A stretch of DNA of 64,000 bases from Candidatus Dichloromethanomonas elyunquensis (lineage in GTDB: Bacteria > Bacillota > Desulfitobacteriia > Desulfitobacteriales > Syntrophobotulaceae). A program made the translations under genes and the position numbers. The notes under the pieces were generated by a model. The model saw nothing but the letters and a program-made list of their open reading frames with translations, made no database searches and was not told the origin of the DNA. The stretch is taken from the NCBI GenBank assembly GCA_001515265.1, contig LNDB01000008.1:1-64000 (forward strand). Reading direction: 5' to 3'. Below, in pieces: positions 20,170 through 58,323 of the stretch. Within the stretch, counting starts at the first letter, position 1. Every line of letters begins with the position of its first letter.

Positions 20170-20254
20170 AAGATGCAAATCACGATGGAGATGATCCTTG
20201 AGTTGTAAACAAAATCACTTTGTGGTAATATACTTTGTATAATTGAATTTGCGG

Positions 20255-20413
20255 GGATAGAGGCGCGGTAATCAAGAGTAGGTATTCGGAGAAGGCAATC
20301 GGTGAAGAATACGGAAAGGGATTACTGCCGAAGCTTACGTCCGGCTGGGACTTAAGCTGGGCCCACACTGAAAAAGTATGGGACTGTCATTCTTAGAGGA
20401 ATGAAGCGCTGTC
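20255..20413 (+). ncRNA. Lysine riboswitch (L-box) leader of lysA
   Basis: GATAGAGGCGCG...TCAAGAGTA...GGAGAA...GTGAA...GAAAGGGATTACTGCCGAAGC...GGCTGG...GGGACTGTCA...GCGCTGTC matches the L-box core order. Confidence 0.9.
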
Positions 20414-20467
20414 TGGGACATGGAAAATAATAGATATCTTCGGGTATGTCTATTGATGAGTTTCGTG

Positions 20468-41102: not shown

Positions 41103-42820
<1,718 letters not shown>

Positions 42821-42894
42821 CTTTTAAATCTCCTTCCAATAAAAAATTTTTCTAATAAATTTTTCTGTCACATTGGATTTCCCCCCTAAAATAC

Positions 42895-42968
42895 AAAAAT
42901 GCCCTGGTTCAAATTTTGAACTAAGGCATCGTTGCCAACATTATTTTATCTTCCGCGACCTCATTGTC
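42895..42968 (-). promoter_or_regulatory. ANTAR-type dual-hexaloop antitermination leader overlapping a terminator, upstream of amtB-glnB
   Basis: Minus strand: GAC-AATGAG-GTC (42957-42968), linker, GGC-AACGAT-GCC (42925-42936); the second right arm is part of terminator ATGCCTTAGTTCAAAATTTGAACCAGGGCAT-TTTT (42899-42929). Confidence 0.65.
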
Positions 42969-43223
42969 CTGACTAAACTTTCCACCTGACTCTATATTAG
43001 CAAAAAGCGGCAATATTGCAACATACTTTTTAATTGAATATTGTATTCATGTTTTTGTTGCGGAAAACTGGGCAGGTTACAGGTCAATAGTGAAAAAAGT
43101 CCCTGTCGATTGGACTGCGCGTTCTTGTCTTAACAAGTATGGGATTACTTGGTATGATATAAACAAATTACGAATAAGGAGAAACATCTGAGTAATGAAC
43201 AAGATTATTTATGTCATTCTCAT

Positions 43224-43401: not shown

Positions 43402-43989
43402 ATGGCAAAGGAACTTGGAATGGACGAAGAAAACAGAATGCCGATTAGTCGAAAATTATTGCGCTATAATATGATTTTATCCCTGGGAATTATGCTTTCG
43501 GCCAGCTTTTTACTAGCAAGGCTTATAACCCCCAGGATATCCATTCTGAGTATTTTTCAAGGCTATTTTACGGCAAAAACGGTAATTGTCTTGGTAGCTG
43601 GGTGTATTCTTTTATTCGTTTTACAGTTATTTTTTATTACATATATTTCCAGAGACGGATTAAAGGATGAAATTAACCGTTATCTCATGGATTATTTTTC
43701 ATTACCTGAGCTTTTTGCTGTTTTTTTCTTGGGGGCATTATCCGAAGAACTGCTGTTTCGGGGAGTGATTCAATTCCATTTAGGGATTTGGATCTCCAGC
43801 ATTTTATTTGCCGTGATCCATTTTCGCTATTTGCGCAAGATATTTCTTTTGACAGAAGTATTTCTTATGGGAATGATCCTGGGATGTTCTTATCTCCTGA
43901 CCCAGTCTCTATGGGTTCCCATTTGCTGCCATTGGAGTGTAAATTATATTACCGCAGTTTTTATTAAAAGAGGGTATATAGAGTATTAA
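43402..43989 (+). CDS. CPBP-family intramembrane metalloprotease
   Basis: GALSEELLFRGVIQF (EExxxR), FAVIHFRY, multiple TMs. Confidence 0.85.
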   Translation: MAKELGMDEENRMPISRKLLRYNMILSLGIMLSASFLLARLITPRISILSIFQGYFTAKTVIVLVAGCILLFVLQLFFITYISRDGLKDEINRYLMDYFSLPELFAVFFLGALSEELLFRGVIQFHLGIWISSILFAVIHFRYLRKIFLLTEVFLMGMILGCSYLLTQSLWVPICCHWSVNYITAVFIKRGYIEY

Positions 43990-56540: not shown

Positions 56541-56582
56541 CACCAGCAAAGCGTAAGGCAATCCAAAAGAATCACCCGAATA

Positions 56583-56690
56583 CACTCTTACCATCCAGAC
56601 TTTAACTGTCGGCTTCGTAATTGCAACGAATCTGCCAAAAGGCTCGCGGGCTGTACCGCCGGTAAGGAATTTCACCTAATCCCAGAGTAA
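56583..56690 (-). ncRNA. FMN riboswitch (RFN element)
   Basis: Minus strand AGGTGAAATTCCTTACCGGCGGTACAGCCCGCGAGCC...AGCCGACAGTTAAAGTCTGGATGGTAAGAGTG. Confidence 0.95.
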
Positions 56691-56781
56691 AGAAGTATTT
56701 AGTTTTTTATTACGCATATATCATACAGCAAGAATGAGCAGATTACAATTCAAAATTTCATGATAAACTTATAAGATTATA

Positions 56782-57405: not shown

Positions 57406-58323
57406 TTAATAATTGGGATTCTGAAGCCTTTTTTCAAATTCTTTCATCCCCATACTTGCAAAGCAGTAAATTCGATGCTGCAAGAGGAGATCCGTTTTTC
57501 TGTCAGCCCATCCTCTGTCAGTCGTGAAACCAATAAGATAACCCGCGTCCTGAACAGCCTTTTCCACTTTGGCATTATAGGCACCAAAAGGGTAGCAAAA
57601 CGATTTGATCGGTTCCAGTTTTTTTTCTAAGGATAACTTCGAATTTTTCACTTCTTCGGTTAACTTGGGGGAATCAAGTTTTGTCAAATCAACATGTGTC
57701 ATGGAGTGGCCTCCGATCTGCCATCCTTCTTTGATAAGCGCTTTTAGGTCGTCCCATGTCAATATATTGTTACTTCCAATATTTTCAGCAATTACAAAAA
57801 TTGTTCCTGTAAATCCGTATTTCTTCATCGTTGGAAATGCATTGGTGTAATTATCCTTATATCCATCGTCAAAAGTGATGGCAATGGGTTTATCGGGTAA
57901 AGTGCCTTTTCCGGTGAAAAAATCATAAATTTGGGTCACCGAAACAGTATGGTATCCTTGCTCAGATAAATATGCCATTTGTTTTTCAAATTCACTGGGC
58001 GGCATGCATATTTCATTTTTAGGAACAGTGGAAACTGAATGATAGTATAGAACCGGAATGGATAAATCTCTGTTAACATGCAGGGCTGCAGGAGTATTAT
58101 TATCAGGGGATGTTGTATTCGGCGAAGATGGCATTGTTTGACTGTTCGCAGACTGCCCCGGATTGGCAGGTGATTGTATTTGAGGATTCGCAGGAGTACC
58201 GGCCGGAATTCCTTTATTAGACATAGAACTTATCTGGGAACAGCCAGTTGTCAAAAGCAGTAAACAAATCGCTGCCGAAAAGACAGAAGAACGGATAGGC
58301 TTAAACAATATACCACCCTCCAT
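57406..58323 (-). CDS. Polysaccharide deacetylase lipoprotein
   Basis: Lipobox LLLTTGCSQ; IAITFDDGYKDNYTNAFP; GGHSMTHVDL. Confidence 0.9.
   Translation of the reverse strand: MEGGILFKPIRSSVFSAAICLLLLTTGCSQISSMSNKGIPAGTPANPQIQSPANPGQSANSQTMPSSPNTTSPDNNTPAALHVNRDLSIPVLYYHSVSTVPKNEICMPPSEFEKQMAYLSEQGYHTVSVTQIYDFFTGKGTLPDKPIAITFDDGYKDNYTNAFPTMKKYGFTGTIFVIAENIGSNNILTWDDLKALIKEGWQIGGHSMTHVDLTKLDSPKLTEEVKNSKLSLEKKLEPIKSFCYPFGAYNAKVEKAVQDAGYLIGFTTDRGWADRKTDLLLQHRIYCFASMGMKEFEKRLQNPNY

Follow-up and report, generated by a model that had tools for sequence, protein, structure and literature searches.

The leader of the amtB-glnB operon of Candidatus Dichloromethanomonas elyunquensis very probably terminates transcription by default, and this termination would be relieved when an ANTAR protein holds the second of its two hexaloop hairpins (P2). 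The leader lies in a stretch of 64,000 nucleotides, referred to here as the window (GCA_001515265.1, contig LNDB01000008.1, positions 1-64,000), and on the minus strand it consists, in order, of an inverted repeat, a predicted promoter, a first hexaloop hairpin (P1), 20 nt, P2 and a terminator, followed by amtB and glnB. Sequence and comparison provide the basis for this reading: the elements themselves, the mutual exclusivity of P2 and the terminator, the conservation of the loops, the covariation of their stems, the presence of an ANTAR gene in the genome, and the co-occurrence of hexaloop leaders with ANTAR genes. A preliminary description of this DNA had proposed ANTAR antitermination of amtB-glnB by a regulator acting in trans, with the two-loop architecture of EutV targets; the first part of that proposal is supported, whereas the EutV-like architecture is not supported as the conserved one.

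The operon encodes an ammonium transporter of 436 aa (amtB, 41510..42820, minus strand; PF00909, E 4e-123; TIGR00836 above cut-off) and a P-II nitrogen regulatory protein of 115 aa (glnB, 41103..41450, minus strand; PF00543, E 2e-31). The leader region sits in a gap of 581 bp that separates amtB (42820, minus strand) from a neighboring gene at 43402-43989 on the plus strand. As this neighbor is divergent, the terminator cannot serve to end the transcript of an upstream gene. A promoter-like sequence, TTGCAA-N16-TAATAT, runs from 43021 to 42994 on the minus strand, with a predicted -35 at 43016..43021 and, preceded by TGC, a predicted extended -10 at 42994..42999; the predicted +1 is near 42987, and the pattern TTGCAW-N16-TANTAT is kept in the two nearest relatives (G010 and G015). 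Upstream of the promoter lies a perfect inverted repeat, TGAATA-CAA-TATTCA (TGAATACAATATTCA; 43035-43049, minus strand), which looks like a candidate site for a DNA-binding nitrogen regulator. Nine further amtB leaders from the order have it in the form TGAATACANNATTCA, with one mismatch at most. Several leaders of the second amtB family carry a related inverted repeat, TGTATACANTATTTA.

Inspection of the minus strand bears out the two A1/G4 hexaloop stems and the terminator of the preliminary description. P1, GAC[AATGAG]GTC (42957-42968), aligns with GGAC[AATGAA]GTCC of G010 and G015. It is separated by a linker of exactly 20 nt (42937-42956), the site of the first terminator in G010, from P2, GGC[AACGAT]GCC (42925-42936), whose loop has A1, A2 and G4 and which aligns with GGC[AAAGAT]GCC of G010. 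In both hairpins the loop is closed by a C-G pair and the stem is 3 bp or longer. The intrinsic terminator hairpin, ATGCCTTAGTTCAAAATTTGAACCAGGGCAT (42899-42929, minus strand; -13.5 kcal/mol), is followed by a U-tract at 42895-42899 on the same strand. The terminator starts within the second loop and takes the entire 3' arm of P2, with ATGCC common to both structures, and P2 and the terminator are therefore mutually exclusive, as had been supposed. When the 93-nt leader is folded, the minimum free energy structure contains the terminator, not P1 or P2 (z = -2.2).

From this fold, we infer that the nascent RNA would form the 42899-42929 terminator by default and stop transcription before amtB. 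By analogy with the EutV and NasR mechanisms, an active ANTAR protein would bind the A1/G4 hexaloop of P2, and once P2 is bound its 3' arm would be withheld from the terminator, allowing the polymerase to read through. Judging by the functions of the two genes, the protein is presumably active under nitrogen limitation. P1 may be a relic of an earlier first attenuator whose terminator has disappeared, and it may still help to recruit the protein.

Evidence that the hexaloops are functional elements comes from comparison of related leaders. The preliminary description had suggested aligning the amtB leaders of relatives to see whether A1 and G4 are conserved, and each hexaloop indeed proves to be kept individually. 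Across 106 amtB leaders with 108 terminators (ten leaders of the second amtB family were added later), an A1/G4 hexaloop hairpin overlaps 50 of the 108 terminators, every other class of loop defined by positions 1 and 4 is found on at most 7, and a reverse-strand control gives an A1/G4 hexaloop on 6 of 71 terminators. The closing pair is C-G in 49 of the 55 A1/G4 hairpins of amtB leaders, and the loop consensus, A-A-N-G-R-N, agrees with the published AGCAANGRRGCUY motif (PMC3369931) and with the motif obtained by SELEX for NasR (PMC7496416). The first loop of the window leader recurs in G010 and G015; the second recurs in G010, and its class is conserved throughout Clostridia. When the octamer CAANGNNG was picked by loop sequence alone, 48% of its occurrences were flanked by two further pairs, compared with 13-19% of control octamers flanked by pairing bases. 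This is a cleaner measure than the covariation count, in which 36 hairpins, all from genomes that do not belong to the order, gave 47 cells changed on both sides versus 13 in shuffles, as this set was prefiltered for pairs 2-3 and overstates the effect; in the same set, sliding the structures reduces pairing to 22-52%.

The hairpins by themselves are less distinctive. Loosely defined pairs of A1/G4 hairpins near a T-run are common, with about 20 in the 64-kb window. Under a strict rule that requires C-G closure, stems of 3 bp or more, and overlap of the second hairpin with a terminator, two dual hits remain in the window: the leader and a weak-stemmed pair at 57840. In 100 dinucleotide shuffles of the entire sequence, two such hits arose altogether. 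A hairpin-only covariance model (R1), which is small, describes a single hairpin and was trained solely on genomes outside the order, scores P2 at 9.1 bits and P1 at 7.7 bits, values that are not significant in 64 kb, and its 12 best matches in the own genome all lie inside open frames and lack a terminator. Because the window hairpins rank under chance matches, this model has no power by itself, and the support comes from context and comparison rather than from the hairpins alone. The curated covariance models of Rfam give no match up to E 1 at 42800-43100. Elsewhere in the window, Rfam models detect a lysine riboswitch (20250-20419, plus strand, 117.9 bits) and an FMN riboswitch (56579-56693, minus strand, 103 bits).

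The arrangement of two hairpins before one terminator is not kept in orthologous leaders. The leaders of relatives have one hexaloop per terminator, single or in tandem, which speaks against a conserved EutV-like unit of two hexaloops and one terminator as first envisaged. In G010, two units follow each other, GGAC[AATGAA]GTCC and then GGC[AAAGAT]GCC, each equipped with a separate terminator; G015 has the first hexaloop-terminator unit alone; and the window leader has both loops and lacks the first terminator, with an alignment gap of about 49 nt relative to G010 at that place. G010, G015 and the window thus represent three forms of the same leader, with a pair of attenuators, a single attenuator, and a pair of loops before one terminator, respectively. 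Among 52 leaders, only that of the window has a C-G-closed P1 that lacks a terminator of its own. Of 25 leaders whose promoters, as predicted from the sequence, are strong (scoring 10 or more out of 12), 20 have their first hexaloop 0-12 nt from the predicted +1, which leaves no room for a recruitment hairpin; in the other five it lies 23-33 nt from the predicted +1, and none of these has a C-G-closed P1.

The preliminary description placed no ANTAR protein in the window and called for one elsewhere in the genome. A genome-wide Pfam search of the own assembly (2.08 Mb, 82% complete) detects a single ANTAR gene (C8:75989-76558; PF03861, E 3e-12), which stands 12 kb beyond the right end of the window. 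It encodes an orphan protein of 189 aa with a receiver-like domain and an ANTAR domain, and we consider this pseudo-receiver ANTAR protein the likely regulator of the leader. The position of the phospho-accepting Asp54 of EutV is occupied by glycine, which is also found in 15 of the 19 subfamily rows, and the signal is therefore unlikely to be phosphorylation. Contact with RNA is plausible from the residues conserved: R142, K143, E160, Y164, R168, M172 and R175 of EutV are kept, and EutV binding is crippled or lost with the mutations E160A, Y164A and M172A (PMC8934654). Three EutV residues are changed (K147Q, K149V and N173T), in a nearly uniform manner throughout the subfamily. This orphan subfamily is conserved in relatives (L194-L203, L205, L207, L208, L211 and, from the own genome, L002:11989-12558); its members mostly have Gly at the phospho-Asp position, together with Q and a hydrophobic residue at those of EutV K147 and K149.

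At least two kinds of ANTAR gene occur in the relatives. One is the immediate neighbor of glnA in some 20 genomes; the second, whose product is 43-88% identical to the own protein, has no glnA neighbor, and the own protein belongs to this glnA-unlinked subfamily. AmiR of Pseudomonas aeruginosa, which is held by AmiC and controls amidase, likewise combines a receiver-like domain that lacks the phospho-acceptor with an ANTAR domain. NitR of Clostridium saccharobutylicum is reportedly encoded next to glnA, an adjacency shared by the first kind of gene and not by the own one. The complete genomes G002, G007 and G021 each have a single ANTAR gene, of the second kind only, and hexaloop leaders nevertheless precede amtB in all three. 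The presence of the motif tracks that of ANTAR genes: in 78 genomes of a second collection, an ANTAR gene accompanies 27 of 28 leaders with a hexaloop, compared with 19 of 50 without one (p = 1e-7, a value that is inflated by kinship and also limited by incomplete assemblies). G018 has neither hexaloop nor ANTAR gene, and within the order ANTAR is also absent from 9 of 10 genomes that lack amtB.

Pattern scans of the own genome (2.08 Mb) for two stem types, GC/GC and AC/GT, returned 37 matches, some of them overlapping. A convincing terminator accompanies the hexaloop at the window leader and at C9:6976-7029 alone; the others were rejected as they have no convincing terminator hairpin at the overlap. 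C9:6976-7029 lies directly before a second amtB and has a single hexaloop with the loop [AACGAA], which starts about 1 nt from the predicted +1, and a terminator of -28.5 kcal/mol. Further hexaloop sites occur before P-II/nifH-type operons in G007 and G021. Single A1/G4 hexaloops with terminators stand before P-II-like genes at L214 (G007:C1:2881000-2883500), L216 (G021:C1:632300-634800) and L212 (G021:C1:3598800-3601200), and at L214 and L216 a second P-II-like gene follows, and then nifH/nifD-like genes. In G007 we also observed a hexaloop, AGC[AAAGGC]GCT, with a terminator before a gene that by eye resembles gamma-glutamyl-GABA hydrolase (peptidase C26; L213, C1:1005500-1008000), and a hexaloop site before a HAD-type gene (L215).

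Within the reading of an ANTAR-controlled attenuator, the role of P1 admits a narrower alternative: P1 and P2 could together form a working canonical target of the EutV type, in which P1 recruits the ANTAR dimer and P2 antiterminates. The eut target of Enterococcus faecalis has the same A1/G4 hexaloops with C-G closing pairs and a P2 that overlaps the 5' arm of the terminator, and the retention of P1 after the loss of its terminator would fit such a role, as would its 3-bp stem with the same loop and closing pair as P2. The affinity of NasR is about tenfold higher for two hairpins than for one (PMC7496416), and deletion of P1 impaired the action of EutV (Ramesh 2012, PMC3369931); EutV itself binds one hexaloop as well as two (Walshe 2022, PMC8934654). 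The linker argues against this arrangement. Those of eut leaders span 5-12 nt, and 3 or 14 nt impaired EutV action in vivo (Ramesh 2012, PMC3369931); in vitro, antitermination was abolished once the linker had been extended by 20 nt (Walshe 2022, PMC8934654); and the 20 nt of the window fall outside the short linkers by which dual-hexaloop ANTAR targets are defined. The restriction of the two-loop form to this one leader and the single loop before the second amtB of the same genome also count against it, and we give a working dual target somewhat less than an even chance.

Some observations count against any ANTAR reading: the linker exceeds the EutV range, the own protein lacks K147, K149 and N173 of EutV, the hairpin-only model is not significant, and hexaloop leaders occur where no ANTAR gene was detected, in the genome of L075 and in G059 (85% complete). 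The last of these, along with the poor fit of single short hairpins that have no P1 to the published dual-hairpin requirement, could suggest that the hexaloop is read by some other RNA-binding protein or by a small molecule. We regard this as improbable, given that the C-G-closed A1/G4 hexaloop is what SELEX selected for NasR (PMC7496416) and what EutV binds (PMC8934654), that hexaloops and ANTAR genes co-occur strongly, that amtB-glnB and glnA-ANTAR lie within 6 kb of each other in G008, and that an 18-nt hairpin would be too small for a typical aptamer. A plain constitutive terminator with chance hexaloops and no regulation is less credible still; the frequency of loose A1/G4 pairs and the low covariance-model scores would accommodate it, but the conserved hexaloops with covarying stems, the divergent upstream gene, which leaves no transcript in need of ending here, and the passing of only two amtB leaders in 2.08 Mb weigh heavily against it.

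ANTAR sites before ammonium-transporter and P-II genes are of a known kind: Ramesh 2012 (PMC3369931) already reports putative ANTAR RNA sites in this gene context, with the same predicted mechanism. The nasF leader bound by NasR shares the terminal C:G pair and the A1 and G4 of the hexaloop, and differs in its two hairpins, in the nitrate signal and in the NIT sensor domain of its regulator (PMC7496416). The attenuator described here differs from the EutV system in its linker, in a regulator that has no phospho-aspartate, and in homologous amtB leaders that mostly have one hexaloop per terminator. A literature search for ANTAR attenuators that have a single hexaloop or stand in tandem brought up no relevant paper other than Ramesh 2012 and that on the EutV structure, and the form with one loop per terminator is undescribed in the literature searched. 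As the model used in Ramesh 2012 required two hairpins, single-hexaloop attenuators would have been missed, or scored only where they stand in tandem.

In the published model, ANTAR proteins act as dimers that require a pair of hexaloops, closely spaced at a fixed distance. When the first hexaloop of a leader starts a few bases past the predicted +1, there is no place for a recruiting loop before it; such single-hexaloop leaders fall outside the EutV model and provide natural test cases for action at a single loop. On balance we lean toward the view that ANTAR proteins of Clostridia antiterminate through a single hexaloop at the 5' end, one per terminator and often in tandem, that P1 is not generally required, and that the two-loop form of the window is secondary and arose by loss of the terminator between two units. 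The single-loop leaders suggest that dual-motif searches overlook some of the ANTAR nitrogen regulon, and its members, amtB and the P-II/nif operons, may accordingly have been under-counted.
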